A stretch of 30,485 nt of DNA, from the IMG/VR virus record IMGVR_UViG_3300038457_000126, positions 1 to 30,485 of that record. One strand, given 5' to 3'. The stretch comes from a virus. Positions 2,707 through 29,116 of the stretch are shown here, piece by piece. Both the position numbers and the translations under genes were made by a program. The notes beneath the pieces were generated by a model. It saw nothing but the letters and a program-made list of their open reading frames with translations. It did not search any database and was not told where the DNA came from. The stretch's first letter is position 1, and each line of letters starts with the position of its first letter.

Positions 2707-3711
2707 ATGAAAATCATTGTTCGAGGCGTGATTGACTGGGCCACCGGCAAAATCGAGGAAGAGGAAAGCTACGAGTACACGGGCCCCGTCGCCGAGTGCA
2801 AATCTTCGGGCTCTGCTCCGCAGCCGACCGATCCATATGCGCAGGCCGCGGCGCAGTACGGTCTCTCGACCGGTACCGCGAACTACAACGCCGCGCTCAA
2901 TCGCACGAACAGCGTCAACCCGCTGGGTTCAAACACCTGGGCCGTGACAGGCACCGACGGCAATCCCACATCGTCCCTCAACGGCTATTCGACATCGAGC
3001 GATGGGGCGTATTCATTGCCTTCTTCCCTTGGCAGCGGCTATTTCGGACTGGGCGGCATCGGCTTCCCCTCCGCGGGAAGCGCGCCGGCGACGGAGAGCG
3101 GCGCCATGAATGGCGGATCTGGCGCGCCGCTCTACACGCAATCGACATCGCTCTCGCCCTGGGCGAACCAGATGCTCGAATCGCCCATCGACACCTCGAG
3201 CGTGCCCGGCATGCCCGGCGGCCCCAATGTGTCTCAGAACGATTACGCGGCACAGCAGGCCAACTACAACCAGCAGATGGGATACCTCGCGCCACAAGAG
3301 GCCCAGCAATCCGAGCAAACCCAAGCGCAGCTCGCGAACGAAGGCGCGATGCCCGGCTCCGCTGCCTACGGCTACGGCATGCAGCAGCTCAACCAGCAGC
3401 AGACCTTTGAGAATCAGCAAGCGGCCGATTCCGCGATCGGCGCCGGCAATCAGGAGGAAGCGACCCTGTATGGCCTGGGCAGCCAGGGCCTACAGAACCA
3501 GTTGGCGGTGCGCAATGCGCCGATCTCGGAATACGAGCAGCTGCAGGGCAATCCGTCGAGCCAGGTCTCCGCGACAACCCCTGACATCTCTGGCGCCTTC
3601 GGCCAGCAATACCAGGGCGCCCTGGCCGGCTACAATGCGAACGTCGCCACCAACAACGCCGATACGAGCAGCCTTGCCTCGATCGCGGCCGCCGCTGCGA
3701 TTTATTACTGA
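2707..3711 (+). CDS. Podovirus-type virion/ejection protein (334 aa)
   Basis: The start has a good ribosome site (CCCGGAGAAG) in the 20-bp gap. The protein opens with a short charged segment. A region with the N-x-V-NPLGS pattern (about residues 62-80) follows, which I associate with ejection-type proteins of podoviruses. The middle is Gly/Ser-rich. From about residue 178 there is a Gln/Asn/Ala-rich helical part with the layout 'QLANEGAMPGSAAYGYGM', resembling a conserved module of virion proteins in BPP-1/BcepC6B-like podoviruses as I recall them. It ends in Ala-rich IAAAAAIYY. It is the third of three adjacent candidate ejection proteins. Its stop TGA overlaps the methyltransferase ATG by one base. 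Confidence 0.65.
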   Translation: MKIIVRGVIDWATGKIEEEESYEYTGPVAECKSSGSAPQPTDPYAQAAAQYGLSTGTANYNAALNRTNSVNPLGSNTWAVTGTDGNPTSSLNGYSTSSDGAYSLPSSLGSGYFGLGGIGFPSAGSAPATESGAMNGGSGAPLYTQSTSLSPWANQMLESPIDTSSVPGMPGGPNVSQNDYAAQQANYNQQMGYLAPQEAQQSEQTQAQLANEGAMPGSAAYGYGMQQLNQQQTFENQQAADSAIGAGNQEEATLYGLGSQGLQNQLAVRNAPISEYEQLQGNPSSQVSATTPDISGAFGQQYQGALAGYNANVATNNADTSSLASIAAAAAIYY

Positions 3712-6398: not shown

Positions 6399-6815
6399 AT
6401 GGATAGACGCGGCCTGAATGCGATGTCCCCGGAAACGCGTTTCGTGCATGAACGGCTGATGGGCTGGGGCGACTGGCAGCGAAGCGAGCTGCGCAGCGGC
6501 AGCCCCATGTCACCGATCGCCCGCATGATGACGTACGGGATCGACGGTGCACACACCAGCAACGCTCCTATCGAGATGCCGAGCCACATTGAGGCTGTCG
6601 ATCGCGCGGTCGCAATGCTCAAGGGCGCTGATCACTTCGTCATCGTGCACTTGTACTGCGAAGATGAGCCGGTTGAGGCGATCGCCCGTGGTCTGCGCGT
6701 CTCGATGGAGAACGTGAGATACACGCTCAACCGGGCGCGCTGGCGGATTTCCGGTTACATCTTCGCGGTGGACTCACACCCGCTGTTCAGAGTCGCTGAG
6801 GCCGCATACGCATGA
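6399..6815 (+). CDS. Antitermination Q-like late regulator, copy 1
   Basis: This 138-residue protein has the layout of phage Q / DUF1133-type late regulators. An N-terminal WGDWQRSEL segment is followed by the SPMSPIARMM stretch. A helical 'AVDRAVAML' region comes next, and then a sigma4-like helix-turn-helix around EDEPVEAIARGLRVSMENVRYTLNRAR (about 88-115). Such proteins switch on late genes by antitermination or by direct promoter action. The call rests on this motif order and not on a unique signature. ATG 6423 is a possible shorter start; neither start has a strong ribosome site. The stop overlaps the next ATG (ATGA). The late (virion) genes it would control lie mostly upstream in this frame, reached around the circle. 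Confidence 0.55.
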   Translation: MDRRGLNAMSPETRFVHERLMGWGDWQRSELRSGSPMSPIARMMTYGIDGAHTSNAPIEMPSHIEAVDRAVAMLKGADHFVIVHLYCEDEPVEAIARGLRVSMENVRYTLNRARWRISGYIFAVDSHPLFRVAEAAYA

Positions 6816-7255
6816 ACGCTGCTGTGGATAGCCTCCAGGCGATGGCGAGCAGCATGGCGAGCCCTACGGTGCCCGGCGAAATCGTCATGGTCGATCGTCT
6901 CTGCGAGAAATGGGCGCGTTGGGTAGGCAACCAGCTCGCCGGCATTGGCTGGTCGAGGACGTCGCCAACGGGCCGGATGATTGAGTACAAGCAGCTGGGC
7001 ATTCAGCGTGAGAGGCTCTACTCGGCCGCGGGTTCGGACAAAGCTCCGGAAGGCGTCATGTTGATCGATCTCGCGGTGGCCCGGCTTCCCCTGCCTTTGC
7101 GCCGGTGCGTCGAGGTCGAGTACTTCACTGGCGGCCCTCGCTCGGTGAAGGCGAAGCGCCTGGCGATCAGCGTGAATGATTTCCGCCAGAACCTGCGCAG
7201 CGCCCAGTGGGCAATCTACGTGCGCATCGACGCGCAGCTCGAACTCGTCGAGTAG
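6812..7255 (+). CDS. Antitermination Q-like late regulator, copy 2
   Basis: This 147-residue protein shares the outline of its upstream neighbour. CEKWARWVGNQ near residue 30 is the W-x-x-W motif seen in Q-type proteins. An SPTGRMIEY segment follows, then 'LIDLAVARLPLPLRRCVEVEYF' and a C-terminal helix-turn-helix-like part (RSVKAKRLAISVNDFRQNL). Overall similarity to the first copy is in motif order, not in close identity, so this is an old duplication or two independent acquisitions. It overlaps the first gene by 4 nt and ends 6 bp before the convergent membrane gene. A role in late transcription is inferred from family resemblance. Confidence 0.5.
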   Translation: MNAAVDSLQAMASSMASPTVPGEIVMVDRLCEKWARWVGNQLAGIGWSRTSPTGRMIEYKQLGIQRERLYSAAGSDKAPEGVMLIDLAVARLPLPLRRCVEVEYFTGGPRSVKAKRLAISVNDFRQNLRSAQWAIYVRIDAQLELVE

Positions 7256-7756: not shown

Positions 7757-7891
7757 GGCAGAGATCCTTGCGTTTTCGGTGGTAGACGCCCGGAAGCTTA
7801 CTCCTGCCCGCGGCGGACGCAGCACGGTAGATCCGGGTTGCGGGACGGGGCGCACAATCCTGGCCGGACTTATGTCGCCCGACCGCCGTAC

Positions 7892-7935
7892 GTAGGTAAG
7901 GCGATATGTATACCCGTACGCCGGTTTGATACGAT
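7892..7935 (+). repeat. Imperfect 45-bp repeat D, upstream of the serine recombinase
   Basis: The core GGTAAGGCGATATGTATAC is repeated at about 8935 as GGTAAGACGATATGCGTAC, in the same orientation 1041 bp away, and similarity continues through a TACG..CGGTTT..TACG tail. The copy lies in the divergent 219-bp gap (7757-7975) between the membrane gene and the recombinase, next to the palindromes TACGTA and GTATAC. It could be a recombination site, an operator-promoter, or a truncated duplicate of the start of the 8947 gene; here the frame from the shared ATG closes after seven codons. Apart from this repeat I see nothing definite in the gap. Confidence 0.6.
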
Positions 7936-7975: not shown

Positions 7976-8647
7976 ATGAATCGAGCCGTGGGCTATATCC
8001 GAGTGTCCACTTCGGATCAGTCAACCGAAGGCGTCAGCCTCGAGGCGCAGCGCGCCCGCATCACCTCTTGGTGTCACGCCAACGATTACGAACTGATCGC
8101 CATCTTCGAAGACGCGGGCTTGAGCGGCTCCAGCATGCTCCGCCGGGACGGTCTGCACGCCGCGGTGAAGGCAGCAGTTCGCGGAACCGCCCTCGTCTCC
8201 TACTCCATCAGCCGCCTCGCCCGCTCCACCCGCGACATGCTCGAGCTCGCCGATCGCCTCGAGCGCCAGGGCGCCGACCTGGTGAGTCTCACCGAGAAGA
8301 TCGACACCACGAGCGCCGCGGGCCGCATGGTGTTCCGCATGCTTGCGGTGCTGGCCGAGTTTGAACGTGAGCTCATCGGCGAGCGCACGAAGATGGCACT
8401 CGCCCACAAGAAGGCCAAGGGGGAGAAGTACGGACCGGTGCCGTTCGGCTTTGAGGAGGTTGAGGGCCGGCTGATCGAGGTGCGCCTCGAGGCCCAGGCC
8501 GTGGCAGCAATCGTCCGCATGCGCGAGAGCGGCCTCGCCTACCGGCAGATTGCCGACCAGCTCAATACGAGCGGCATCACAGGCAAACGCGGTGGCCAGT
8601 GGCACGCGTCCACAGTGCGCTACGTCATCAATCGGCAGGCAGCATGA
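7976..8647 (+). CDS. Serine recombinase (resolvase/invertase family)
   Basis: This 223-residue protein opens with YIRVST; Ser11 is the expected nucleophile, with Arg9 beside it. The SISRLARSTRDM segment (about 78-89) corresponds to the DRLxRxxxD motif of the family, although the first Asp is Ser here. The long E helix follows (MLAVLAEFERELIGERTKMAL). The C-terminal region GPVPFGF...RQIADQLNTSGITGKRGGQWHAS is a short Recombinase-type segment with a DNA-binding helix-turn-helix. The start has a GAGGGA ribosome site. Length is greater than a minimal resolvase and far below a large integrase. It may resolve multimers of the circle or move its own cassette; the flanking repeats D and E are candidate sites. 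Confidence 0.9.
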   Translation: MNRAVGYIRVSTSDQSTEGVSLEAQRARITSWCHANDYELIAIFEDAGLSGSSMLRRDGLHAAVKAAVRGTALVSYSISRLARSTRDMLELADRLERQGADLVSLTEKIDTTSAAGRMVFRMLAVLAEFERELIGERTKMALAHKKAKGEKYGPVPFGFEEVEGRLIEVRLEAQAVAAIVRMRESGLAYRQIADQLNTSGITGKRGGQWHASTVRYVINRQAA

Positions 8648-8940
8648 TACCCGCGCGTCGGCTCTTGGAGGCAAAGGCCTTGTTCGGTCGGTCGCTGGTG
8701 CGTCAGGCGCGATATACCGATCCCGCCGACATCGAACTCACGGCCGAGACCATGGACGCCGTGCACGATGCTGCCGATGAACTGCTCGAGCATGCCGGCG
8801 ATCCGCGGGCTCAAGGACGCCTCGTTGCAGCGCTCAACCCGCAGACGCGCCTGGTGCTCTGCATGTGGGTCATCGACCTTTCGCTCGGCGGAACCCTCGC
8901 CAAAAGAGCGGTTTCCGAGCCGATTCGGGTATGTGGGTAA
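8644..8940 (+). CDS. Small hypothetical protein behind the serine recombinase
   Basis: The ATG overlaps the recombinase stop (ATGA), giving 98 residues; an upstream in-frame start at 8599 lies inside the recombinase. The protein is helical and polar with a hydrophobic C-terminal half (RLVLCMWVIDLSLGG). It has no motif I recognise. Its last codons lie within repeat E, so gene and repeat share sequence. It may travel with the recombinase as a two-gene cassette between repeats D and E. Confidence 0.5.
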   Translation: MIPARRLLEAKALFGRSLVRQARYTDPADIELTAETMDAVHDAADELLEHAGDPRAQGRLVAALNPQTRLVLCMWVIDLSLGGTLAKRAVSEPIRVCG

Positions 8941-8976
8941 GACGATATGCGTACTAATACGGGCGGTTTAGTACGC
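8933..8976 (+). repeat. Imperfect repeat E with inverted repeat, over the start of the GNAT-like gene
   Basis: This is the partner of the repeat at 7892. It also contains a perfect 8-bp inverted repeat, GCGTACTA (8949-8956) and TAGTACGC (8969-8976), spaced by 12 bases. The repeat spans the stop of the preceding gene and the ATG of the next one. No clear ribosome site precedes that ATG, so the site may control its expression. Confidence 0.6.
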
Positions 8977-10482: not shown

Positions 10483-11466
10483 TTGACGAAGAAAACGCCC
10501 GGCCCTGGGAAAGGCGCCGATACACCAGGACTTACCCACGCCGGTACGTACCTCCCGGGCGGCCTGCGCGAGGAAGCCGCGAAGCGCAAAAAACTGGTGC
10601 CGGAGTCGATCAACACGCTGATGCAGCGCGGTCTGGCGATCGAGACCGACGAGGCGCAGAACGCCGGCGCCATCGGCTTCATGGCCCGCGCCATGACCAT
10701 GGCGAGCCTCCCCCACAGCCGTGTCCATGGCAATGCGTTCGAGCGGCATAACGGCGCCTTCAGCCTGTCGATCGTGGCTCCGCCGCGGCTCGGCCTGCCG
10801 TATGGGACGGTACCGCGGCTGCTCCTGTCCTGGCTGACCACCGAGGCCGTGCGGACCCGCAGCCCCGAACTCGTGCTCGGCGATACGTTGAGCGGCTTCA
10901 TGCGTCAACTTGACCTGGTGCCCACTGGCGGCCGCTGGGGGACCATCAAGCGTCTGCGGGATCAGAGCGAACGGCTGTTTGCCTCGTCGATCACGGCGAT
11001 CTACAAGGACGAGCGGCGCACGGCGATCCAGAATCACAGCGTGGCCGAGCACGCCGATCTATGGTGGGACCCAGCGGAGCCGGAGCAGGGCACCCTGTGG
11101 CAATCGACGGTGAGACTCACCACGAATTTCTACAACGAGATCATCAAGGCACCGGTGCCGGTCGATATGCGGGCACTCGCCGCGCTGAAGCGCTCGCCAA
11201 TGGCGCTCGACATCTACGTGTGGCTGACCTACCGCATGTCGTACCTGAAGAAGCCGACCACCATCACGTGGGAAGGCCTGCAGGGGCAGTTCGGCGCGGG
11301 CTACCCGGAGACGCCGAGGGGGCTGCGCAACTTCCGAGCGCATTTCGTGCCGGCGCTCAAGAAGGTGATGGTCGTCTACCCGGACGCCAAGGCCGCCGCG
11401 GTCGATGCCGGCATTCGGCTCACCCCGGGCCGACCGCACGTCTCGAAACTGCCGGCGAATGAATAG
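10483..11466 (+). CDS. repA: Plasmid replication initiator RepA
   Basis: The 327-residue protein matches the RepA family of iteron plasmids. After a helical N-terminus, the conserved block YGTVPRLLLSWLTTEAVRTRSPELVLGDTLSGFMRQL (about 106-142) includes the 'IPR-LLL-W-x-T-EA-x-R-T' signature. SPMALDIYVWLTYRM and the tryptophan-containing WEGLQGQFG winged-helix segment follow. It should bind the iterons downstream and open the origin. I take the TTG at 10483 because AAAGGTG lies at a proper distance; the next ATG (10621) has no ribosome site. A GGTACGTACC sequence at 10543 falls inside the coding region. Confidence 0.85.
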   Translation: MTKKTPGPGKGADTPGLTHAGTYLPGGLREEAAKRKKLVPESINTLMQRGLAIETDEAQNAGAIGFMARAMTMASLPHSRVHGNAFERHNGAFSLSIVAPPRLGLPYGTVPRLLLSWLTTEAVRTRSPELVLGDTLSGFMRQLDLVPTGGRWGTIKRLRDQSERLFASSITAIYKDERRTAIQNHSVAEHADLWWDPAEPEQGTLWQSTVRLTTNFYNEIIKAPVPVDMRALAALKRSPMALDIYVWLTYRMSYLKKPTTITWEGLQGQFGAGYPETPRGLRNFRAHFVPALKKVMVVYPDAKAAAVDAGIRLTPGRPHVSKLPANE

Positions 11467-11523
11467 AAGCTGCCAGACCACACCCAATCGATGAATACCC
11501 TATGAAAACAGCGATTTGCTTAC

Positions 11524-11540
11524 GCATAAACGGTAGCGCC
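11524..11540 (+). repeat. Iteron 1
   Basis: The sequence GCATAAACGGTAGCGCC is the first of four direct repeats. It stands 117 bp before the second, so it is probably a separate site, possibly for control of repA. Confidence 0.85.
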
Positions 11541-11605
11541 TCGAATCGTCGAGTCGGCCTGCTGGAGTTCGGTCCGGGGACGTCACGTCCAAGGCGCCGC
11601 GCGGC

Positions 11606-11641
11606 TGTGGACAACCCTGTGAGCGGAGCGGGTTATCCCCG
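11606..11641. promoter_or_regulatory. Pair of DnaA-box-like sequences
   Basis: TGTGGACAA (11606-11614) differs by one base from the consensus TGTGGATAA, and TTATCCCCG (11633-11641) is a weaker match in the opposite orientation. They stand directly beside iteron 2, as expected for host DnaA assisting RepA. Confidence 0.55.
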
Positions 11642-11657
11642 CATAAACGGTAGCGCC
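11641..11657 (+). repeat. Iteron 2
   Basis: This is an exact copy of GCATAAACGGTAGCGCC. It is 34 bp from iteron 3, about three helical turns, so initiators would bind on the same face. Confidence 0.85.
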
Positions 11658-11674
11658 TAGTGAGGGGCATTCAC

Positions 11675-11691
11675 GCATCAACGGTAGCGCC
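11675..11691 (+). repeat. Iteron 3 (one mismatch)
   Basis: GCATCAACGGTAGCGCC differs from the others by one base (A to C at position 5). It is 22 bp from iteron 4, two helical turns. Confidence 0.85.
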
Positions 11692-11696
11692 TTTGC

Positions 11697-11713
11697 GCAT
11701 AAACGGTAGCGCC
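11697..11713 (+). repeat. Iteron 4
   Basis: This is an exact copy of the 17-bp repeat, placed immediately before the AT-richer segment that is the likely unwinding site. Confidence 0.85.
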
Positions 11714-11771
11714 ACTCTTATTGTCAGACCAGTAGTCCCTGTAATTAAGACCTGTAGTTGCTTCGCCGGAT

Positions 11772-11829: not shown

Positions 11830-12486
11830 ATGGCGACAATGAAGACGCGGACGATCGGAGTGGTGCAAGTGAAGGGCGGAGCAGGGCGCTCGACGCTGGC
11901 CACCACGCTCGCCGGCGAGCTCGCGAAAGTCGGCAAGACGGCGCTGATCGACTGCGACATGCCGCAGGGGACGTCCTCGAGCTGGGCCAGTCTGCGACAG
12001 GCCGCGCTCGGCAAGTCCGTCATCGACGCGTACACCGCGGCGAATCACCGGGATCTGGTCACGCTCGCCGCGCGCCTGGCTGACACCGTCGATTGGGTCG
12101 TACTCGATGGCGGCCCGCGGATCGCCGAGACTACCCGGGCAATCCTCGCCTTGAGCGACCTGGTGCTGGTGCCAGTGGGCGCATCGCCGGCCGAACTCTG
12201 GGCAACGACCGACGTCGTGCCGCTGATCGATGAGGCCCGGAAGGTGAGGGCGGTCGATGCCCGGCTCGTTTGGACCCGCTTTCGCGCGCACACCCGGCTC
12301 GCCATGGACCTCGAGGCCCAGGCCGGCAAGGAACTCGGATTGAAGCCGCTCAAATCGAAGCTCGGTTTCCGGGTGGCATACGCCGAAGCGCTCGGGGACG
12401 GCTCGACCGCGGCGGAACTCGGTGATGCGCTGGCCCGCGAGGAAGTCGAGGCGATGGTCAGCGAGATTCGGCGGATACTCAAGTAA
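11830..12486 (+). CDS. parA: ParA-family partition ATPase
   Basis: The 218 residues have the deviant Walker A KGGAGRST (15-22), the switch I Asp in LIDCDMPQGTSS (about 39-50), and the Walker B-like WVVLDGGP (about 90-97). The size and absence of an N-terminal helix-turn-helix suggest a type Ib ParA, which works with a small ribbon-helix-helix partner. The usual Walker A lysine of KGGxGK is Arg20. The signature Lys15 is kept. The start (ATG 11830, with ATG 11839 as alternative) follows an AAGAGG ribosome site. The gene runs into the RHH gene 22 bp downstream. Confidence 0.85.
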   Translation: MATMKTRTIGVVQVKGGAGRSTLATTLAGELAKVGKTALIDCDMPQGTSSSWASLRQAALGKSVIDAYTAANHRDLVTLAARLADTVDWVVLDGGPRIAETTRAILALSDLVLVPVGASPAELWATTDVVPLIDEARKVRAVDARLVWTRFRAHTRLAMDLEAQAGKELGLKPLKSKLGFRVAYAEALGDGSTAAELGDALAREEVEAMVSEIRRILK

Positions 12487-12487
12487 T

Positions 12488-12508
12488 CAGGTAAGAGGGT
12501 ACATACCT
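12488..12508 (+). promoter_or_regulatory. Operator-like site A (GGTAA plus GGTACATACC)
   Basis: The palindrome GGTACATACC (12498-12507) is preceded by GGTAA. It lies between the ribosome site (AGAGGG) and the ATG of the RHH partition gene. The same composite occurs at 13428 and 18801. It is a candidate binding site (operator or centromere) for one of the element's RHH proteins. Confidence 0.6.
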
Positions 12509-12802
12509 ATGGCAAAGAAGAAACACGCCACATTGAAAAAGCCGGTGCTCACGAGCGAGGCCGTTCTCGGCTTCGCGGAAGGCCGCGGTTCGCCGGCGTC
12601 GAGTCGGGCACGCAGCTCGAAGGCCTCTGCCGCGGTGGTGGATCCTGCATCGACGTCGAGATTCCCGCCCACCGGCGATATTCGGCTCACGGTGAATATC
12701 CGCGAGGATCTGCACATGCGGCTGAAAATGGAGGCGGTGAAGCGTCGCACCACGGTGGGGGAGATCCTCGAGGACCTGGTTCAGCAGCACATCAAGGCGT
12801 GA
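12509..12802 (+). CDS. Ribbon-helix-helix partition/repressor protein (ParG-like)
   Basis: The 97-residue protein has a basic, disordered N-terminal tail (about 1-55) followed by an RHH fold. A strand IRLTVNI is followed by helix REDLHMRLKMEAVKRR and helix TVGEILEDLVQQH. This is the layout of ParG-type partners, in which the RHH dimer binds the centromere/operator and the tail stimulates the ParA ATPase. It directly follows parA, and operator-like site A overlaps its translation start, consistent with autoregulation. No sequence-specific signature distinguishes ParG from other RHH repressors, so the symbol is left blank. Confidence 0.75.
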   Translation: MAKKKHATLKKPVLTSEAVLGFAEGRGSPASSRARSSKASAAVVDPASTSRFPPTGDIRLTVNIREDLHMRLKMEAVKRRTTVGEILEDLVQQHIKA

Positions 12803-12814
12803 GCCGCACCGTCG

Positions 12815-13366
12815 ATGGATCCGCAAATCGTGGGCGAGTTCTGGGAGATCTGCAACGCGGCGTATGAGTGCTGGCTGGCAAGGCGAGGCCTGTTCGAGGA
12901 CAACGCCGAGCTTGAGCAGCTGGTACACACGCACTGCGCCCAATACTTGGCGCATCTCGGCATTGTCACGCAACGGGACGTGCTGCATCAGATCGCCAAG
13001 CTTCACGATCCGGCGAGACAGTTCGGGCAGAGCAATCTCTCGATCGGCTTCATCATCGACAATGGAGTGTGGGATCGGGAGACCCGAATGCGCCTGAGCC
13101 TGCTGAAGGCCAAGCTCGATGCCTTTGCATCGCTCCTGCGCGACGCCCGCAACAAACTGACGGCGCACAACGACCTAGCCACGATTCTGGCCGGCCAGCC
13201 GCTGGGGAGATTTCCCGCCGTCGCCGACATTGAGTACTTCAAGGATCTGCAGGAGCTCGTGGCCATCGTTGCTGGCACCCCGCGGCCGTTCAATGACCTG
13301 GTCCGAAACGACGCGCGGGCATTCGTTGAAGCGCTCATGCGCGGAACTCGCCAGATTCCTCAATGA
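12815..13366 (+). CDS. HEPN-domain protein, AbiU2-like
   Basis: The 183-residue all-helical protein contains IAKLHDPARQFGQSNLSIGFII (about 68-89) and LLRDARNKLTAHNDLA. The latter holds the HEPN Rx4-6H ribonuclease motif (R-N-K-L-T-A-H). The 'DPA..NLS' segment followed by 'LR..RNK..AHND' is the pattern I know from the AbiU2-like HEPN family. Such proteins often act in abortive infection or toxin-antitoxin pairs with a nucleotidyltransferase; none is adjacent. It starts 12 bp after the RHH gene, so it may be part of the partition operon and act in defence or plasmid maintenance. I base this on motif reading only. Confidence 0.6.
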   Translation: MDPQIVGEFWEICNAAYECWLARRGLFEDNAELEQLVHTHCAQYLAHLGIVTQRDVLHQIAKLHDPARQFGQSNLSIGFIIDNGVWDRETRMRLSLLKAKLDAFASLLRDARNKLTAHNDLATILAGQPLGRFPAVADIEYFKDLQELVAIVAGTPRPFNDLVRNDARAFVEALMRGTRQIPQ

Positions 13367-13424
13367 AATCAATCAAACGGGCCATAAAGTAGGGGCATCG
13401 GAGCGCCGCGGCTGTGGTCTGCTC

Positions 13425-13449
13425 ATAGGTACATACCCGATTACCTGTG
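13425..13449 (-). promoter_or_regulatory. Operator-like site B
   Basis: GGTACATACC (13428-13437), with the GGTAA flank present on the opposite strand, gives the same composite site as at 12488 and 18801 but inverted. It lies 28 bp upstream of the promoter of the HigBA accessory operon. Confidence 0.6.
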
Positions 13450-13464
13450 CGTCGGTTCACATTT

Positions 13465-13507
13465 GTAACCAAATGGGTTGCACATCCGTAACCAATGGGG
13501 TTACAAT
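13465..13507 (+). promoter_or_regulatory. Promoter with two tandem palindromic operators
   Basis: The -35-like TTGCAC (13478-13483) and -10-like TACAAT (13502-13507) are separated by 18 bp. The perfect palindrome GTAACCAATGGGGTTAC (13488-13504) covers the spacer and part of the -10 box. A near copy, GTAACCAAATGGGTTGC, lies 23 bp upstream (13465-13481). This is a typical repressible promoter. It drives the operon starting at 13534, which includes the HigA-type regulator. The 167 bp between 13366 and 13534 hold no gene. Confidence 0.65.
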
Positions 13508-13533
13508 CTGCCTCACGTTACTGGAGACCGACC

Positions 13534-13740
13534 ATGCAAACCTGGAACTGGAAGCAAAGCCCTGACCTGATGGCCCGCCTGACCAAGGCGCAGAACGCCC
13601 TGCGCACCCCGATCGACATCATGACGTACGCCGGCTGGTGCGAAACGGAAGCGGCTCTGAAGGCCCACGTCGAGCGCTACGAGGCCGAGGTTGCCGCCCA
13701 GCCGGCGCGCAAAGTCCGCCGCTCGAAGGTGGCCGCATGA
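13534..13740 (+). CDS. Small hypothetical protein, first gene of the accessory operon
   Basis: The 68-residue protein starts at an ATG with a GGAG ribosome site. It is helical, begins MQTWNWKQSPDL, and ends in a basic tail (ARKVRRSKVAA). Its 3' end contains AAGGTGG, the ribosome site for the next gene, whose ATG overlaps the stop by 4 nt. I recognise no family. It is the first gene after the twin-palindrome promoter. Confidence 0.6.
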   Translation: MQTWNWKQSPDLMARLTKAQNALRTPIDIMTYAGWCETEAALKAHVERYEAEVAAQPARKVRRSKVAA

Positions 13741-14051
13741 TCCGCAACAGCAAGCAGGTTTGGACGGTCGGAAGCACGGTCAAGGTCGGGTTTCTGACGC
13801 TGGTCGTCAAGGCCGCGATCGCCACGCCGGGCGACGGGCTGCCGGATGTGTATTTCCTGGCGAGCGTCGCCGGGACCAAGCTTTACGAGTTCACGCCGCA
13901 TAAGGGCTTGCGCAGCGTGACGGTGGAGGAGGCGGTCAAGCGGGTTGCGGAACTCCGGGCTGCGCTCGAGCGCATTGCGGCGTCCGAATCGGCGCGCGCC
14001 ATCAAAGTCGCGCAGGCCTCCGCTCGGTTCAATGAGATTTTCGCGGCTTAA
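13737..14051 (+). CDS. Hypothetical protein, accessory operon
   Basis: The 104-residue protein has a strand-rich first half (VWTVGSTVKVGFLTLVVKAAI, VYFLASVAGTKLYEFTP) resembling a small SH3-like or KOW-type barrel, and a helical second half rich in Ala, Arg and Glu. The start at 13737 is coupled to the preceding gene by ATGA. I know no function. It precedes higB by 11 bp. Confidence 0.6.
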   Translation: MIRNSKQVWTVGSTVKVGFLTLVVKAAIATPGDGLPDVYFLASVAGTKLYEFTPHKGLRSVTVEEAVKRVAELRAALERIAASESARAIKVAQASARFNEIFAA

Positions 14052-14062
14052 CCGGCGACCGC

Positions 14063-14341
14063 ATGATCACGAGCTTCAAGAGCAAGGCCCTCGCCGAGCT
14101 GTTCAACAACGGCAACCCTCGCAAGGTGCAGCCGAAGCACGTCGAGCGATTGAACATGATCCTGACCATGCTGAACGCTGCGACGAATGCCGGACAGATG
14201 ACTGCGCCAGGCCTGCGGCTGCACCCGCTCAAAGGCAAGCCGAAAGGGCGTTATGCGGTCTGGGTCGATGAGAATTTTCGAGTGACTTTCCGATTTGAAG
14301 CCGCGAACGCGGTAGAGGTGGATTATGGCGACTATCATTAA
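14063..14341 (+). CDS. higB: HigB/RelE-family toxin
   Basis: The 92-residue protein carries the HigB core. It starts ITSFKSKALAELFNNG and contains KVQPKHVERLNMILTMLNAA, then GLRLHPLKGKPKGRYAVWVDENFRVTFRFE and ends VDYGDYH. HigB toxins cleave mRNA on the ribosome and stabilise plasmids when the antitoxin decays. The toxin-first order and overlap with the antitoxin gene are typical for HigBA. It should stabilise the element as an addiction module. Confidence 0.9.
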   Translation: MITSFKSKALAELFNNGNPRKVQPKHVERLNMILTMLNAATNAGQMTAPGLRLHPLKGKPKGRYAVWVDENFRVTFRFEAANAVEVDYGDYH

Positions 14342-14636
14342 AGCAGCGGCGACCATGCACAGCCCGGCGCACCCCGGCGCAATCCTGTCCGAGATGTATC
14401 TGAAGCCGATGAAGGTGAGCGTCACCGAGGCGGCCGAAGCGCTCGGCGTCACCCGCAAGCACGTCTCCTCGATCATCAATGGCCGATCGCCGGTGTCGCC
14501 GGACATGGCGATGCGGCTTGCCGGTGCGTTCGCAACCGAGGCAGCGTTCTGGGTGAACCTCCAGGCGCAGTACGATCTTTGGGTGGTGAGCCAGAAGAAG
14601 CCGCCCAACGTGAAGTCGCTACGGCAGGCGGCCTGA
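14325..14636 (+). CDS. higA: HigA antitoxin (XRE-type helix-turn-helix)
   Basis: The 103-residue protein has the HigA opening HPGAILSEMYLKPMKVSVTEAAEALGVTRKHVSSIINGRSPVS, a helix-turn-helix of the XRE type. The conserved 'MAMRLAGAFATEAAFWVNLQAQYDLW' segment follows. It neutralises HigB and represses its own promoter. A GAGGTGG ribosome site precedes the ATG, which lies 17 bases inside higB. The palindromes at 13465-13504 are a plausible HigA operator although two other genes stand between. Confidence 0.9.
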   Translation: MATIIKAAATMHSPAHPGAILSEMYLKPMKVSVTEAAEALGVTRKHVSSIINGRSPVSPDMAMRLAGAFATEAAFWVNLQAQYDLWVVSQKKPPNVKSLRQAA

Positions 14637-14637
14637 C

Positions 14638-14844
14638 GTGGAACTGAGCCACGACGACATCGGGGATATCAGCCTCGCGCTGCGGCATCGAATCGTGCAC
14701 GTGGAGAAGCAGCTCGCCGGCGAACTCGATGCCGAGGACCGCGAGGAACACACCGACGAGCTCGCGCGGCTGAAGGCGCTCGTCAAGCGCGTCGATGCGG
14801 AGCGGCCGGCGGCACAGCAACGATTCCTCGAGCGCGAAACTTAA
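14638..14844 (+). CDS. Small acidic helical protein
   Basis: The 68-residue protein has a GTG start one base after the higA stop, behind AGGCGG. It is almost entirely helical and rich in Glu, Arg and Leu, likely a coiled coil (VHVEKQLAGELDAEDREEHTDELARLKALVKRV). Function is unknown. Confidence 0.55.
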   Translation: MELSHDDIGDISLALRHRIVHVEKQLAGELDAEDREEHTDELARLKALVKRVDAERPAAQQRFLERET

Positions 14845-14865
14845 CCATCGGCGAGGGGCGTGAGC

Positions 14866-15111
14866 ATGCCTGACACGAAGCGACAGCCGACCGCCGATGA
14901 AATCGCTGGCATGGCGTGGTGGAACAGCTTGACCGAGGCAGAGCGCGCGACGGCTCTCAAGGCGGCTGGCTGGCAACACGGAGGCGCATACACGCCCAGC
15001 GCGGCAGATGCTTGGGCCTGGCATAAACAGGGCCAACGTGTTGCCGTCGGCGACCTCGCGAAAGATGCCGATGCGTACTTCAAGACGTTCGGAGGCGATT
15101 CCGATGGCTGA
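14866..15111 (+). CDS. Small hypothetical protein
   Basis: The 81-residue protein begins at ATG 14866 behind GAGG; an in-frame GTG at 14860 is an alternative. It contains ADEIAGMAWWNSLTEAERATALKAAGW and a Trp/Ala segment (ADAWAWHKQGQ), resembling small phage or plasmid proteins of unknown role. The stop overlaps the next ATG by 8 nt (ATGGCTGA), the same junction type as in the 19.4-21.7 kb array. Confidence 0.55.
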   Translation: MPDTKRQPTADEIAGMAWWNSLTEAERATALKAAGWQHGGAYTPSAADAWAWHKQGQRVAVGDLAKDADAYFKTFGGDSDG

Positions 15112-15454
15112 CCTCGAACCGAACAGCGGCCCGGCCCATCGTTGCAAACACGGCAACGACTGGCTTACCTGCGACGCCTGCGAGAAGGCCTCTCGAGCAA
15201 CCGCGCATTTCGCCGCCGATCCCGACAACACGTCCCCCGAAGCGACCGCGCGGCAGTGGATCATTCAGCGCTGCATCAACGCCTTCCGGAACGAGTACGA
15301 GGATTGGCCCGGCTACTGCGAGCGGCTGTTGAACCGGCCGGAGATGATGGCCGCGCTCTACGAATGCGAGGAGCGATGGCCAGAGCACGAATTCCGTGGC
15401 CACAACGTCGCCAACCAGAAACCAGGGCGCGATCGGCTGCGGGTGGTGCAGTGA
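15104..15454 (+). CDS. Small Cys-rich, possibly zinc-binding protein
   Basis: The 116-residue protein has HRCKHGNDWLTCDACEK near residues 12-28, which could bind a metal through its Cys/His set. A helical part follows (QWIIQRCINAFRNEYEDWPGYCERLL) and a polar C-terminus. GGAGG stands eight to nine bases upstream of the ATG, inside the previous gene. The function is unknown. Confidence 0.55.
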   Translation: MADLEPNSGPAHRCKHGNDWLTCDACEKASRATAHFAADPDNTSPEATARQWIIQRCINAFRNEYEDWPGYCERLLNRPEMMAALYECEERWPEHEFRGHNVANQKPGRDRLRVVQ

Positions 15455-15678
15455 TGAACGCCGCGCCGAGTTTCCAGCGATATGGAGGCAGCTACCTGCG
15501 CTATGCCAGCGTCGATGTCATCACCCACACTGGATTGCAGTTCGCCATTTTGGATCGCAAGACCTCCCAGCTGGTGCGCGCGCCTAATGCCCCACATCGG
15601 ACCTGGTTGTTCATGGAACCGGCCGAGGTCTCGGAGCAAATCGAACGCCTCGAAGCGTGCGCTTTGGAGACCCCGTGA
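15454..15678 (+). CDS. Small hypothetical protein
   Basis: The 74-residue protein starts at an ATG overlapping the previous stop by one base (TGATG). It has strands (LQFAILDRKTSQLVRA) and a C-terminal helix (PAEVSEQIERLEACAL). No family is recognised. An 81-bp gap without clear signals follows before the small-terminase-like gene. Confidence 0.5.
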   Translation: MNAAPSFQRYGGSYLRYASVDVITHTGLQFAILDRKTSQLVRAPNAPHRTWLFMEPAEVSEQIERLEACALETP

Positions 15679-15759
15679 CGACCCCAGGTTTAATCAAACA
15701 ATCGCCAGCTATTCAGCAAGATAGGTGGGCGAATCCGCTCCCGGCAGGCGGGGCCTGAC

Positions 15760-16086
15760 ATGGCCCGTGGCGGAAGCCGGCCCGGCGCTGGTCGCAAGCC
15801 CGGGTTCCACCACAGCGAGCGCACCCGCGAACGTATCCGCACCTGGATCATCGTGAACCGGCTGCAGGCCTTCTGCCTCGGCGAAAATGACCCCAGCACG
15901 GGAAAGCCGGTGGTCATGTCGGCGAGCCAGGTCACCGCCGCCCTTGGGCTGCTGAAGAAGACGCTCCCCGACTTGAAGGCTGTCGAGCACTCGGGCGACG
16001 TCGAGGCCATGGTCTACGTCGTGACGGCCGATCCACCGACCGAGGCGGAATGGCAGGAGCGATACGGCGGGACCGGCCGGCATTGA
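15760..16086 (+). CDS. Small terminase subunit-like protein
   Basis: The 108 residues begin MARGGSRPGAGRKPG, the basic Gly/Arg start common in phage small terminases. A helical region (RERIRTWIIVNRLQAFCLGEND) and 'MSASQVTAALGLLKKTLPDLKAVEHSGDV' follow, then the acidic end PPTEAEWQERYG. This order is the one I know from small terminases of podoviruses. The small subunit recognises the packaging site and hands DNA to the large subunit. The large-terminase gene, which normally follows at once, is missing: 665 bp of non-coding DNA and a recombinase come next. The opening motif also occurs in other phage proteins, so the call is moderate. Confidence 0.6.
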   Translation: MARGGSRPGAGRKPGFHHSERTRERIRTWIIVNRLQAFCLGENDPSTGKPVVMSASQVTAALGLLKKTLPDLKAVEHSGDVEAMVYVVTADPPTEAEWQERYGGTGRH

Positions 16087-16121
16087 CCGACGGCCGACCG
16101 CAATAGGGGAGAGGCAGGATA

Positions 16122-16148
16122 GGCCCTCCGGGCCGGTTGCATTGCAAC
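16122..16148. repeat. Two tandem small hairpins
   Basis: GGCCC-TCC-GGGCC (16122-16134) and GTTGC-ATT-GCAAC (16136-16148) are perfect five-bp stems with three-base loops, separated by one base. They stand 35 bp after the small-terminase-like stop. No T-tract follows, so intrinsic termination is not indicated. Confidence 0.6.
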
Positions 16149-16183
16149 TGCGGGTTCACGACTGTCACGGGCCAGGGAGTGTG

Positions 16184-16195
16184 TGGAAATTTCCA
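16184..16195. repeat. 12-bp perfect palindrome
   Basis: TGGAAATTTCCA is a perfect AT-centred palindrome in GC-rich surroundings. It is a candidate protein-binding site within the possible packaging or attachment region. Confidence 0.55.
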
Positions 16196-16751
16196 TCGGC
16201 CGGGTAAGTTGCCGGCAAGAACGGCACCGCGCGCACCGCCGACAACCCATCGTCTCGCCCCGCTGGCTAGGGAAGCGGTTTAAATCAGCCATCGGGGTAC
16301 CGAAGTAGCGGCCCCCCTGCCGATCGCCGCCTATAAACGATCTGGCGCGGTCGGCCTGGAAGCGGTCCCTGGCAAACCGCCGTACCCGATCATTACGCGC
16401 TCCGAGTCCCCGTGCCCTCCGATCCGGGTCCGCCGCGCTGCCCGGCGTCGGGTCGGTAGCGAATCGTCTTGGCTGCCCGTTAGCGCCCGAAACGCGAAAA
16501 CCCCTGGTTTCGAAGGACTGCGGGCGATCCTCTGCGAACCGCATAACCGCGGTTCCTATGCTCTGGGCGAGCAGAAAAAGACGTCCAGCGTTTAATGATC
16601 GTGGCTCCCTTCGTTCAAAGCGATGAAGCGAGTTCCCAGACAGGGGAAAGCGCAGCCGAAACAACGAGCTATAGCCATCGATCATTATGCCGATTTGGCC
16701 CGGGGTAATGACCGTTCGCACCCCGGCAGACGCAGGACGCGGAGACGTGTC

Positions 16752-18752
16752 ATGCCCAAGAATATTACGTTCGATCAGCTGCGAGCCGTGATGGCCAGCC
16801 GTGCCGGCCGCCCCGGCCTTCCCTCCAAAAAGTCCATGGGCAACGCTCGGTCCGCCCTCGTCGGATTGGTCCGTGCCCTGCAGCTCGACATGGAGGCCAA
16901 GGTCGGCGCCACCCTGCGGGAGGACTTCAAGGCCTCCCTGGACGAGTTCCGCGGGCAGCTGCGCCGGCTCAACCGCGGCCGCCAGAGCATCAACAACAAA
17001 GCCGCCTCTCTGAAGCAGTGGGCGACCCTCGTGCGAATCCTCGACCACGAAGGGGCTCTGCAGGCCGATACGCGGACCCCGTTCCAGCAGAAGCTCGATC
17101 AGATGTTCGAGACCCGGAAGGACATGTTCCGCCTGGCCGCCCAGGCCGGGCTCTCCTGGCGGACGCTGCGTAACTGGAAGACGCGCGGCGCGATGCCGAA
17201 GTCCACGTCCGACGGGAACCTGGTCCGCCTCGCCATCGTGAGCGGCCTCGATCCCGATGCGCTGACGAAGTTGCTGCCGCCGGCGATCGGCCGCTTCCCG
17301 GTCCAGACGATCGAGGTGATGAGCATTCCTTCTCGCACGAGAAACACGGCGCTCGCTAGCAAGAAGGAGAACCGGTACCTCGTGCGGCCGAAGCAGGCCA
17401 CGGAGGCGTTCAAGACGGAATGGCGCGGGTTGCTGATCCACAAGGTGCCCGCGGCCAAGGGCATGGACGACACCGAGGATCCGCAGGCGAAGCTCGGCGT
17501 GCGCCAGCTCGTGCGCGCGGCGATGAAGTCGGACCCGGAGGACTCGGATCGAGTGTGGCGACTGCGCCCCGTGGAGGATTACCCAACCGACCACCCGGCA
17601 TGGATCAACACCGTCGGCGGCCAGGTTGCGCCGTCGGCAGATATCAACTACCGGCACGTCTCCGCGTTCTTGGGGTGGGCACGGCTACCAGTGGAGAGGG
17701 GCGGAAAGGCGATGCCGGACGAGAAGCTGTCGATGGGACTGCTGGTGAACACGAAGCTGCTCGAGGAGTTCCTGGAGTGGCGCGCGGTGCGCTCCGACGC
17801 TGTGAATGCGGGGCTGATGGGATTCATCGCGAGCGTGCGCTCCTACTGTCGCCCCAAGACCGGCTATCTGTGGGCATCGAAGGCGATCGGCAAGACGATG
17901 GGGAAGAGCGAGACCGCCTGGCGCGCTCGCTGCAAGGCGACGAATGATTGGCTCGCGCTCAAGATGGAGCAGCTCCGGCCGTTGCTCGAGCAGTCCCGTG
18001 ATCCGGCGGCGCCGCTGAAGCCGCTGCTCGATATGCCGCGGCCGCTGCAAGGGTACCGGGACGCGATCAACCGATATGCGAGCCAGGTGCGGCCGACGCC
18101 GTTGCTGCGCGCCACGCAGGCCCGCGATCTCGCGTTGCTCGCGGTCTCGATCTCCAACCCACTGCGGCTCACGAACCTGCGGCTGCTCACGTACAAGCCC
18201 GATGGCAGCGGCCATTTCCGCAAAACGGCGCGCGGCACCTGGGAGGTGTTCGTTCCCCGGATCGAGTTCAAAAACATCCGGGGAGCAGCGAAGGACCGCG
18301 ATTACCACATGCCCCTGTCCGAGATGGCCGCGCATTTTCTTGAGGAATACTTGGAAAAGCATTGGCAGCTCCTGGGCGGGGCAGGGCAGCGCGGCCTCGT
18401 CTTCATCAGCACGGGAAAACCCGATGAGGTATGGGAGGACCTGGACTGCCAGTACGCGAAGGTGACGTCGGATTGTCTGCGCGTCCTCGGCTGCCCGAGC
18501 ATTCGGCCCCACGCTACCCGTTACCTGGTTGGCACGGCCATTCTCATGGCGACCCAGGGCAACGTCGAGCTCGCGGCTGCCGCCCTGCACGACAAGAAGG
18601 AAACCGTGGAGAAGCACTACAGCAAGCTGCTGGCTTCGTATGCCTCCCGAGGCGTTCATGCCGCGATCGGCAGGGATCTGTCGTTCGGCTTCGATGAGAA
18701 GGTGGCCGGCCTGGTGCCGATTCCGTACATCGAGCCCGACACCAAGGAGTGA
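16752..18752 (+). CDS. Very large tyrosine recombinase / integrase-like protein (666 aa)
   Basis: The C-terminal third holds the catalytic set of tyrosine recombinases. NPLRLTNLR gives Arg472, RPHATRYLV gives His587 and Arg590, ALHDKKETVEKHYSK gives His613 and the nucleophile Tyr623. The N-terminal 400 residues are far longer than a usual arm/core-binding region. They contain a helix-turn-helix-like segment (AQAGLSWRTLRNWKTRGAMP, about 134-153), followed by a region with no recognisable motif. I chose ATG 16752 because GGAG stands eight bases upstream; an ATG at 16623 is in frame but lies in poorly coding DNA. On a plasmid-like circle it could integrate the element or resolve dimers. Confidence 0.8.
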   Translation: MPKNITFDQLRAVMASRAGRPGLPSKKSMGNARSALVGLVRALQLDMEAKVGATLREDFKASLDEFRGQLRRLNRGRQSINNKAASLKQWATLVRILDHEGALQADTRTPFQQKLDQMFETRKDMFRLAAQAGLSWRTLRNWKTRGAMPKSTSDGNLVRLAIVSGLDPDALTKLLPPAIGRFPVQTIEVMSIPSRTRNTALASKKENRYLVRPKQATEAFKTEWRGLLIHKVPAAKGMDDTEDPQAKLGVRQLVRAAMKSDPEDSDRVWRLRPVEDYPTDHPAWINTVGGQVAPSADINYRHVSAFLGWARLPVERGGKAMPDEKLSMGLLVNTKLLEEFLEWRAVRSDAVNAGLMGFIASVRSYCRPKTGYLWASKAIGKTMGKSETAWRARCKATNDWLALKMEQLRPLLEQSRDPAAPLKPLLDMPRPLQGYRDAINRYASQVRPTPLLRATQARDLALLAVSISNPLRLTNLRLLTYKPDGSGHFRKTARGTWEVFVPRIEFKNIRGAAKDRDYHMPLSEMAAHFLEEYLEKHWQLLGGAGQRGLVFISTGKPDEVWEDLDCQYAKVTSDCLRVLGCPSIRPHATRYLVGTAILMATQGNVELAAAALHDKKETVEKHYSKLLASYASRGVHAAIGRDLSFGFDEKVAGLVPIPYIEPDTKE

Positions 18753-18800
18753 TTTCAGGATCCGTTCAGTCCCTTGATATCGAAAATGAGGATATACGTG

Positions 18801-18820
18801 GGTAATCAGGTACATACCTA
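18801..18820 (+). promoter_or_regulatory. Operator-like site C
   Basis: GGTAATCA is followed by the palindrome GGTACATACC (18809-18818) and TA. It is the best copy of the composite also found at 12488 and 13425. It lies in the 144-bp gap after the recombinase gene, 40 bp upstream of the putative promoter of the small RHH gene. Confidence 0.6.
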
Positions 18821-18859
18821 CGCAGAGGCCGAACGGATCACGTTTTCACGCGATTTTGC

Positions 18860-18896: not shown

Positions 18897-19070
18897 ATGG
18901 GCAAAACGACGCGACATCAGCAGCTGATCTATCTCGACCACGAGAAAGCAGCATTGTTGGACGCGCTGGCAAAGGAACTTGGGACGCCGCGGGCAGTGCT
19001 GCTGCGCGCTGCGGTCGATGATTTGCTGGTGAAGTTCAAGAAGCTGAAGCCGCCCAAACGCAAGCCCTGA
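18897..19070 (+). CDS. Small ribbon-helix-helix DNA-binding protein
   Basis: This 57-residue protein has the RHH layout. The strand QQLIYLD is followed by helix HEKAALLDALAKELG, the turn TPRA, and helix VLLRAAVDDLLVKFKK. A basic tail KPPKRKP follows. CopG/Arc-type repressors have this size. The start at 18897 is preceded by a 14-bp palindrome overlapping the -10 box, which suggests autorepression. It stands at the head of the tandem small-gene array and may control it. It could also bind the GGTACATACC sites, but the other RHH protein is an equal candidate. Confidence 0.65.
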   Translation: MGKTTRHQQLIYLDHEKAALLDALAKELGTPRAVLLRAAVDDLLVKFKKLKPPKRKP

Positions 19071-24423: not shown

Positions 24424-24641
24424 CCACCACTCGCACAAAAAGCTGTCGGTCACTGATCGGCGAGCGATCAGTCAGTGATCGGTTAGCGATCTCTGGCCCA
24501 CTGATCAGTTCCGTATCCGTATCCGTTGCCTTGCTTCCGGATGCTTACCAAGGGGCGGATCTACCTGATACCTATCTACCTGGTGCTCTGGGGTTCCCTT
24601 CCAAAAACCGCGCCGATTTTAAAAATCGAGAAGCGTCATGA
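24420..24641 (+). CDS. Short frame downstream of the DUF1376 gene, possibly its displaced tail
   Basis: The 73-residue frame starts in an ATGA overlap and ends in an ATGA overlap with the helicase, which fits a coupled gene. Its sequence is low in complexity (SLIGERSVSDRLAISGPLISSVSVSV), like the repetitive tails I recall from some DUF1376 proteins. The DNA beneath is an 11-bp repeat array, not a multiple of three, so the protein sequence may be a by-product of a DNA function. It may not be a real protein. Confidence 0.35.
   Translation: MTTTRTKSCRSLIGERSVSDRLAISGPLISSVSVSVALLPDAYQGADLPDTYLPGALGFPSKNRADFKNREAS
24452..24509. repeat. Phased GATC repeat cluster next to the replication genes
   Basis: GATC occurs at 24455, 24466, 24477 and 24488, exactly 11 bp apart, and again at 24503. 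ACTGATCG-gcgag-CGATCAGT (24452-24472) is a perfect inverted repeat, and ACTGATCAGT (24500-24509) a perfect palindrome. The 22-bp unit GATCGGnnAGCGATC appears twice. Iteron-like, helically phased repeats inside or beside an O-like gene are typical of phage origins. Confidence 0.65.
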
Positions 24642-26317: not shown

Positions 26318-27309
26318 TGCGCGCCGACGAAATCCATTCACGGCTCGCCTCGAGCTGGCCGCAAGTTCTCGTCCAGCTCGGAATCGCCGAGACGACGCTC
26401 AAAAACAAACATGGCCCGTGCCCGGCATGCGGCGGGAAAGATCGGTTCCGCTTCGACAACAAGCGCGGCCGCGGCGATTATTTCTGCAATCACTGCGGCG
26501 CCGGCGATGGCTTCAAGCTCCTGGAGCGCACGTTCGGTTGGACGTTCAGCATGGCGCGCCGGCATGTAATCGCCGCTGCGGGGCTGGCCGATGATGCTGA
26601 CGCTTCGCCTGCACCGGTAAGTACCCGCATACCTGCACACGTCCCAGCTACCCCGGAGATCGCGCAACCGACAGCGCGCGTGCATCGGCTGCGCAGCGAT
26701 CGATGCGCCATCGAAAACTGTGACGATGCGGTCGATTACCTCGATAGCCGGCGCCTCTGGCCGCCTCCCCCGGGCTGCTCGCTGCGGGCCCACGCCACCG
26801 TCGAATATTGGAACGACAACGTACGGGTGGGCCGGTATCCGGCGCTCGTTGCCGATGTCCTCGACGTCGCCGGCGAGCTCGTCACCGTCCACACGACCTA
26901 CCTACAGCACGGCAAGAAGCTGGCCGGGCACGAGCCCCGGAAGATCTGGAGCCCAATGACCGGCCGCCGCGGCTGCGCGGTGCGACTGATGCCGGTGGGC
27001 GCGGTCATGGGGATCGCCGAAGGTATCGAAACCGCCTTGTCCGCTACCGAGCTGCACGACGTGCCGACCTGGGCAGCGCTCAACACGTCGCTGCTCGCCA
27101 AGTTCGAACCGCCGGCGACCGTCCGTCGTCTGCTCATTTTCGCGGACGCCGACGTGCCAGGCCTGCAGGCCGCCGCGGCGCTGATGCAGCGGCTGCAGGG
27201 CCGCGTCGAGTTGGAGATCCGCACACCGCCGGCGCCCGCGAAGGATTGGAACGATGCCCTGATGACCCATAACAGCCGCCGGAGCGGCGAAGGATTCGCG
27301 CATGAATAA
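26314..27309 (+). CDS. Phage-type DNA primase (zinc finger plus TOPRIM)
   Basis: The 331-residue protein has a Cys4 zinc-binding domain, CPACGGKDRF...DYFCNHCG (Cys36, 39, 58, 61), for template recognition. A linker and middle region follow, and then the TOPRIM motifs MGIAEGIETALSA and LLIFADADVPG. The layout matches phage primases of the P4-alpha/TOPRIM_3 type, without a helicase domain; the helicase is the separate gene just upstream. The start is ATGATG at the helicase stop. It overlaps the next gene by 8 nt (ATGAATAA). Confidence 0.85.
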   Translation: MMRADEIHSRLASSWPQVLVQLGIAETTLKNKHGPCPACGGKDRFRFDNKRGRGDYFCNHCGAGDGFKLLERTFGWTFSMARRHVIAAAGLADDADASPAPVSTRIPAHVPATPEIAQPTARVHRLRSDRCAIENCDDAVDYLDSRRLWPPPPGCSLRAHATVEYWNDNVRVGRYPALVADVLDVAGELVTVHTTYLQHGKKLAGHEPRKIWSPMTGRRGCAVRLMPVGAVMGIAEGIETALSATELHDVPTWAALNTSLLAKFEPPATVRRLLIFADADVPGLQAAAALMQRLQGRVELEIRTPPAPAKDWNDALMTHNSRRSGEGFAHE

Positions 27310-28759: not shown

Positions 28760-29116
28760 ATGGCCGCTGACCCCGCAATGATGCAGCAGATGCTGGTGCA
28801 GCAACTCCAGCAAGGACCCCAAGGCGGAAGCTTTGGCGGCGGCGCGGCAGGTCCGCAGATGCAAGGGAGCATCAACCCGATGAACGCGGCGGCGAACCTC
28901 GTGCAAAAGGCGATGTTGGTGAAAGCGCTCCAAAATTCGCAGCAGGGACAGGCGCAGCAGCAGTTCACTGCGAACCAGCCTGCGATGCAGGCCCAGATGG
29001 CGAACGATCCCACGATGCAAGCGCTCCAGCAGTCCCCGCAGCTGGATCCGAACGTCCTGGCGCAACTGCAACAGCAGCCCCCGATTGCGCCGCCGGGAGG
29101 AGGTCCGACGCAATGA
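28760..29116 (+). CDS. Gln/Ala-rich virion-associated protein
   Basis: The 118 residues are rich in Gln, Ala, Met and Pro, with a Gly-rich turn (GGSFGGGAAG) near residue 25. A helix NAAANLVQKAMLVKALQNSQQGQAQQQ follows, and then a PPIAPPGGG end. Its composition is like the small Q/A-rich proteins that precede ejection proteins in podovirus operons. It overlaps the next gene by 4 nt. It may be a small ejection protein or an internal head component. Confidence 0.5.
   Translation: MAADPAMMQQMLVQQLQQGPQGGSFGGGAAGPQMQGSINPMNAAANLVQKAMLVKALQNSQQGQAQQQFTANQPAMQAQMANDPTMQALQQSPQLDPNVLAQLQQQPPIAPPGGGPTQ

Follow-up and report, generated by a model that had tools for sequence, protein, structure and literature searches.

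Arrays of an 8-bp DNA word dispersed over a plasmid-like element with phage genes are probably sites for its ParG-type centromere-binding protein

Which protein reads the short GGTA-containing sites that recur, far apart, on IMG/VR record IMGVR_UViG_3300038457_000126? The whole of this DNA (30,485 nucleotides, hereafter the window) was analysed; its 127-bp end repeat closes it into a 30,358-bp circle, a plasmid-like element that encodes a RepA_C initiator with iterons, ParA, a ParG-type ribbon-helix-helix (RHH) protein, HEPN_AbiU2, HigBA and a serine resolvase. A first-pass annotation had noted such sites at three control points and proposed that one of two RHH proteins encoded here links partition with other functions. 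This link is supported by comparison among five replicons and by matching positions in the Polaromonas plasmid pW9NP1. As judged from sequence comparison, the best explanation would be that the arrays are scattered operators or centromeres of a ParG-type centromere-binding protein, a reading to which we give a probability of roughly 0.7.

Three copies of the composite GGTAA-N3-GGTAYRTACC are present with zero mismatches, at 12490-12507 (+), 13428-13445 (-) and 18801-18818 (+), slightly shifted from the coordinates first given, and a fourth, at 26616-26633 (-), follows the looser frame GGTA-N4-GGTA-N2-TACC. The real unit is an octad, NGTAAGYA, arranged head-to-tail in arrays of two to four copies with a near-invariant TA at positions 3-4, and the composite consists of two octads plus a closing inverted half. 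Arrays were found at six locations in the window (Table 1), of which those at 7887-7910, 8928-8951 and 26616-26641 had escaped the first-pass annotation; the site that it had recognized at the start of parG is longer than supposed, comprising four octads from 12474, spanning the parA stop and ending one base before the parG ATG (12509). This array has the top four-octad score in the window (27.2), and that at 18793-18824, which contains one of the exact composites, scores 27.1. The two-octad score of the 13428-13445 site ranks second in the window, the three-octad score of the 7887 array (with a matrix from other replicons) exceeds those of 200 out of 200 shuffles, and the 8928 array scores 16.1 over three octads, a value reached by about 0.5% of shuffles. 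The core GGTACGTACC at 10543, earlier put forward as a related site, is present, but as a lone match within repA codons that has no second octad and was missed by the matrix; a pair at 24569 (GGTAGATAGGTA) was rejected on the negative score of its second octad.

The nearest ParA and ParG relatives are encoded on pW9NP1 (L104), on a Caballeronia catudaia contig (L109) and on two IMG/VR contigs, L115 and L128. Single-sequence searches of viral_contigs with ParG and ParA gave no relatives, and L115 and L128 were found by an alignment-based search. Head-to-tail 8-bp words lie beside the par genes in all four. On pW9NP1 the octads GATAATTA AGTAAGTA CATAAATA CGTAAGGA CGTAAACA immediately precede the parG ATG, whereas on the Caballeronia contig they run from the parG stop onward (TGTAAGTA CCTAAGCT GGTAAGCG TACAAGTA GGTACGCG GATAAGCA GGTAAGTA), with four more at 2910 and two before parA; seven octads lie ahead of parA in L115, and in L128 a copy of 42 bp from the 3' end of parG is followed, after about 45 bp, by four. 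Arrays are placed, then, between parA and parG (window and pW9NP1), behind parG (Caballeronia contig and the L128 copy) or before parA (Caballeronia contig and L115). The copy in L128, at 3397-3437, lies some 1.9 kb downstream of the original (1449-1490), pointing to a rearrangement at parG. The consensus of 46 pooled octads is G-G/A-T-A-A-G-Y-A, the A at position 4 being invariant and the T at position 3 present in 45. Three array positions are common to the window and pW9NP1. One is the gap between parA and parG, another the promoter of the resolvase gene, and the third the start of the cluster leading to repA, where the pW9NP1 counterpart of the 8928 array, at 6785-6824, stands ahead of repA and of the 10021 homologue. 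On pW9NP1 the resolvase promoter reads TTGCAC-N17-TATAAT in the sequence, with one site within the spacer and another immediately downstream, the layout that is classic for a repressor operator. A 2018 paper on Polaromonas plasmids reports a ParG-type protein on pW9NP1 and has a supplementary table of putative parS sites (PMC6015842), in which the array beside the par genes of pW9NP1 may already figure. No description of dispersed octads was found. The word GGTATGTACC in phage contigs L027 and L028 stands in a different context and does not form octad arrays, and orphan RHH genes (L119/L124, L127 and L120-L123), being decayed or without parA, were uninformative.

The sites are in excess over chance, as gauged both from shuffles of the window that preserve dinucleotides and from control DNA of 303,678 bases from unrelated contigs with a GC content of at least 58%. 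GGTA-N4-GGTA-N2-TACC occurs four times in the window and in neither control, and GGTA-N4-GGTA six times, against 0.17 in the shuffles and 0.2 per window in the control DNA; the refuting condition named in the first-pass annotation, an equal frequency of the motif in unrelated DNA, did not hold. Lone GGTA is about twofold over shuffles, an excess that GC-rich control DNA commonly shows too, and the expectation was therefore recalculated from its real frequency in the window, which gave about 0.3 tandem pairs at 8-bp spacing against the six observed. A matrix built solely from the relatives' octads, without window sites, ranks the window's own sites first, with eight matches of at least 12 bits (0.35 in shuffles) and four of at least 15 bits (none in the control DNA). 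When each of four replicons (window, pW9NP1, the Caballeronia contig and L115) was scored with a matrix from the other three, the par-locus three-octad arrays beat 200 out of 200 shuffles in every one. L128, found after the matrix was built, served as a prospective test, and its best three-octad match (22.1), located just behind the copied 3' end of parG, likewise scores above all 200 shuffles. Searching viral_contigs with the exact composite pattern gave 19 matches, which are ascribed to chance as none is near a ParA or ParG homologue.

ParG is recognizable in every replicon examined and is the only candidate binder beside the arrays in each, the same octad arrays accompanying a ParG-type RHH protein in five replicons. 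Since related plasmids also carry them, the arrays are probably bound by the ParG that the plasmid itself encodes, which would use them as switch and as centromere. Four further plasmids, L105-L108, encode RepA, ParA and, in three cases, a resolvase of comparable identity, RepA and ParA being as close as those of pW9NP1, but their ParG is divergent and par-locus arrays of the octad kind were not found in them; the presence of arrays therefore goes with the ParG clade. The best sequence match of the window ParG in the PDB is ParG of TP228 (1p94; E=0.0024), followed by omega (2bnw). Residues 59-63 (RLTVN) are the predicted recognition strand, and an AlphaFold2 monomer model has low confidence over residues 1-60 and two confident helices at 64-96. 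The plasmids with a divergent ParG, L105-L108, have a palindrome, GCATAAGTATGC, that is a word distinct from the octads. In L105, L107 and L108 it is followed by GGTATGC and lies just upstream of repA, GCATAAGTATGCNGGTATGC being found there at L105:193-217, L107:753-777 and L108:4133-4157; in L105 and L108 the resolvase promoter has GCATAAGTATGT again. These words may be to the divergent ParG clade what the octads are to the present one, or else mark a RepA operator.

Other binders must be considered. It is unlikely that the serine resolvase uses some or all of the arrays for binding or crossover, even though arrays lie upstream of it in both the window and pW9NP1 (whose recombinases are 66% identical): the par-locus arrays are far from the resolvase gene, L105, L106 and L108 have resolvases of 47-54% identity yet no such par-locus arrays, the two pW9NP1 sites near the resolvase point in opposite directions, neither being a copy of the other, and the recombinase of the Caballeronia contig, encoded at a distance from the arrays there, is no more than 34% identical. 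Somewhat less likely still is that the sites are operators of the small RHH protein, the other candidate left by the first-pass annotation, which is of CopG type and has the 18793-18824 array 73-96 bp upstream of its gene. It has no homologue in seven related replicons (phmmer --max, E of 5 or less), pW9NP1, the Caballeronia contig and L115 carry arrays all the same, and those arrays adjoin parA/parG rather than any small CopG gene. Between the two RHH proteins, the comparison favours ParG (12509-12802). We regard binding by RepA, HigA or a host factor as slightly more doubtful again. Sites do lie near the repA-linked and higBA operons, and the higBA promoter has inverted repeats of its own, but higA, higB and the HEPN gene had no tblastn match in the loci compared, L104-L109, L115 and L128 among them, the RepA iterons are a different word, the RepA and ParA of L105-L108 come without par arrays, and sites of a host factor would not be expected to track the clade of ParG. 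Chance or codon effects are very improbable, for although GGTA is generally common in GC-rich coding DNA and one core (10543) and one site (26616) sit within genes, the absence of composites and of matches of at least 15 bits from the control DNA, together with the independent recovery of sites by matrices from other replicons, already refutes chance for the main arrays, and it could still account only for the 26616 site taken alone.

A number of points nevertheless weigh against ParG as the common binder. Only five replicons with the same ParG clade were found, and the octad registers of the training arrays were drawn by eye, a bias that is reduced, though not abolished, by the leave-one-out design and by L128. 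Foldseek returned no match for the monomer model of ParG. The 26616 site falls within a coding region, and its sole near copy, in L024, is identical in sequence. The 7887 and 8928 arrays flank the resolvase gene and belong to a duplication of about 40 bp, so that they could be resolvase sites; the shared stretch (GTRGGTAAGRCGATATGYRTAC...), at 7887-7930 and 8928-8970 in direct orientation, is perhaps a duplication or a pair of recombination sites. Lastly, the arrays may form a regulon or dispersed centromeres, as the first-pass annotation had it, yet at two of its three sites, those of the 13428 and 18793 arrays, about 34-42 bp separate the array from the predicted -35 box downstream of it, and simple promoter occlusion is therefore not evident there. 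The promoter-like site ahead of the higBA-carrying operon (13479-13507) is overlapped by two inverted repeats, GTAACC-N5-GGTTAC/GGTTGC, at 13462-13507, which are probably a separate autoregulatory operator.

With ParG as the preferred binder, we hypothesize that a single dimer of the ParG encoded by the element would land on each octad, and that adjacent octads, whether direct or as a closing inverted GGTAnnTACC, would let dimers sit side by side. By analogy with omega, which needs four repeats for ParA activation, the four-octad arrays at the parA/parG junction and before 18897 would be the best centromere candidates, coupling to ParA, and the arrays of two to three octads at the resolvase gene, the repA-leading cluster, the higBA operon and the primase gene would act mainly as operators. 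The level of ParG would in this way tie copy number, multimer resolution, addiction and partition together. It is interesting to speculate, if at a little under even odds, that ParG is a global regulator in a family of proteobacterial RepA_C plasmids, and also in a plasmid that carries phage genes, a single RHH centromere-binding protein having a repA-linked cluster, resolvase, toxin-antitoxin, partition and small accessory genes under its control, with the relative placing of arrays conserved between genera while the exact words drift.

Turning to the remaining content of the element, parG is encoded just downstream of parA. ParA has 218 amino acids, its AAA_31, MipZ and CbiA matches begin at residue 7 with no N-terminal helix-turn-helix (HTH), and it is 54-58% identical to Polaromonas plasmid ParA. 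The HEPN_AbiU2 gene product possibly has an abortive-infection or toxin function, and the HigB toxin (14063-14341) and HigA antitoxin (14325-14636) form the end of a four-gene operon. Four iterons CGCATAAACGGTAGCGCC at 11513-11714 adjoin repA, the same iteron occurring with GGTCGCG or GGTGACG in related plasmids; between the iterons and parA are the repeats CCTGTAAT/CCTGTAGT (11727-11760), found in the same place in pW9NP1, L106, L107 and L128. Phage-like genes comprise a primase, a helicase, a member of the virion structural family phrog_6121 and a PAPS reductase; no terminase, portal or major capsid protein was recognized among the window proteins scanned. The integrase-like protein int709 has only distant relatives in plasmids. 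An open frame of 579 amino acids spans the record ends (29113-30358 joined to 1-494), and its first 312 amino acids gave no PHROGs match.

Table 1. Octad arrays and selected genes of the window
Feature	Position	Strand	Remarks
Three-octad array CGTACGTA GGTAAGGC GATATGTA (TACC)	7887..7914	+	62-66 bp before resolvase ATG (7976)
Octad array GGTATGTG GGTAAGAC GATATGCG	8928..8951	+	Overlaps start of first gene of four-gene cluster ending in repA
Four-octad array GATACTCA AGTAATCA GGTAAGAG GGTACATA + CC	12474..12507	+	Octads 12474-12505
Two-octad site GGTAATCG GGTATGTA CC	13428..13445	-	89 bp before first gene of higBA-carrying operon
Array TATACGTG GGTAATCA GGTACATA CCTACGCA	18793..18824	+	Between integrase-like gene and small RHH gene
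Two to three octads CGTGTGCA GGTATGCG GGTACTTA CC	26616..26641	-	Inside primase gene
Small serine recombinase (resolvase/invertase type)	7976..8647	+	PHROG 95 E=8e-66, PHROG 125
RepA (RepA_C) replication initiator	10483..11466	+	PF04796 E=1.5e-31
ParA partition ATPase (type Ib, no HTH)	11830..12486	+	AAA_31, MipZ, CbiA
ParG-type RHH protein	12509..12802	+	Pfam ParG PF09274, 22.8 bits (cut-off 21.4)
HEPN_AbiU2 domain gene	12815-13366		Directly behind parG
Four-gene operon carrying higBA	13534..14636	+	PF05015 E=1.5e-15; PF01381 E=4.7e-9
Small RHH protein (57 aa, CopG-type)	18897..19070	+	RHH_3 E=3e-7

In the omega (ParB) system of pSM19035, contiguous non-palindromic 7-bp repeats, direct or inverted, are found at several loci, where they overlap promoters of the omega gene and of genes for copy number and partition. 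Tight binding takes two repeats, and ParA activation four or more contiguous ones (PMC9499535). In a similar manner the window has a predicted RHH centromere-binding protein and arrays of two to four repeats at partition, repA-linked, resolvase and toxin-antitoxin genes, and its six arrays, including those at parA/parG and at the head of the repA-leading cluster, are dispersed as in omega. The two differ in the repeat unit (8-bp NGTAAGYA against 7-bp WATCACW), in the length of the arrays, which are shorter in the window, and in the protein, which is here of ParG type in a proteobacterial RepA_C replicon, with regulation that is predicted from sequence; the window ParG scores 16.0 bits against the omega family PF07764, below the cut-off of 33.3. 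The present analysis defines a DNA word, a protein and positions for a ParG clade of betaproteobacterial replicons and IMG/VR contigs, and suggests that dispersed RHH centromere/operator arrays, detailed for a Firmicute plasmid, also organize Gram-negative plasmids and a plasmid bearing phage genes. The octad word can be used to find the centromeres of related plasmids, and lets array length (four or more against two) be tested as the divide between centromere and operator.

The ParFG-parH system of TP228 likewise pairs a ParA ATPase with a small RHH protein encoded behind it, which in TP228 has a long N-terminal tail, and has tandem short boxes adjoining the genes. A tetramer box with a 4-bp spacer would give the same 8-bp step there. 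The parH box sequence probably differs from the window octad. Sites in TP228 are described only at the par locus, whereas the window arrays are spread over the replicon. ParG of TP228 is also an operator-bound repressor (PMC7308502). The small ParA without an HTH, the ParG-family RHH protein encoded downstream and the tandem repeats beside the genes are those of a ParA-ParG (type Ib, RHH-ParB) module. KorB of IncP plasmids, also a partition protein, controls genes for replication and maintenance from sites spread over the plasmid, and in that spread resembles the window system, but is an HTH-type, clamp-forming ParB, in contrast to an RHH protein with short tandem repeats. The window system would work like the omega/parS network, while its gene content places it among the ParA-ParG modules and not within the omega family.

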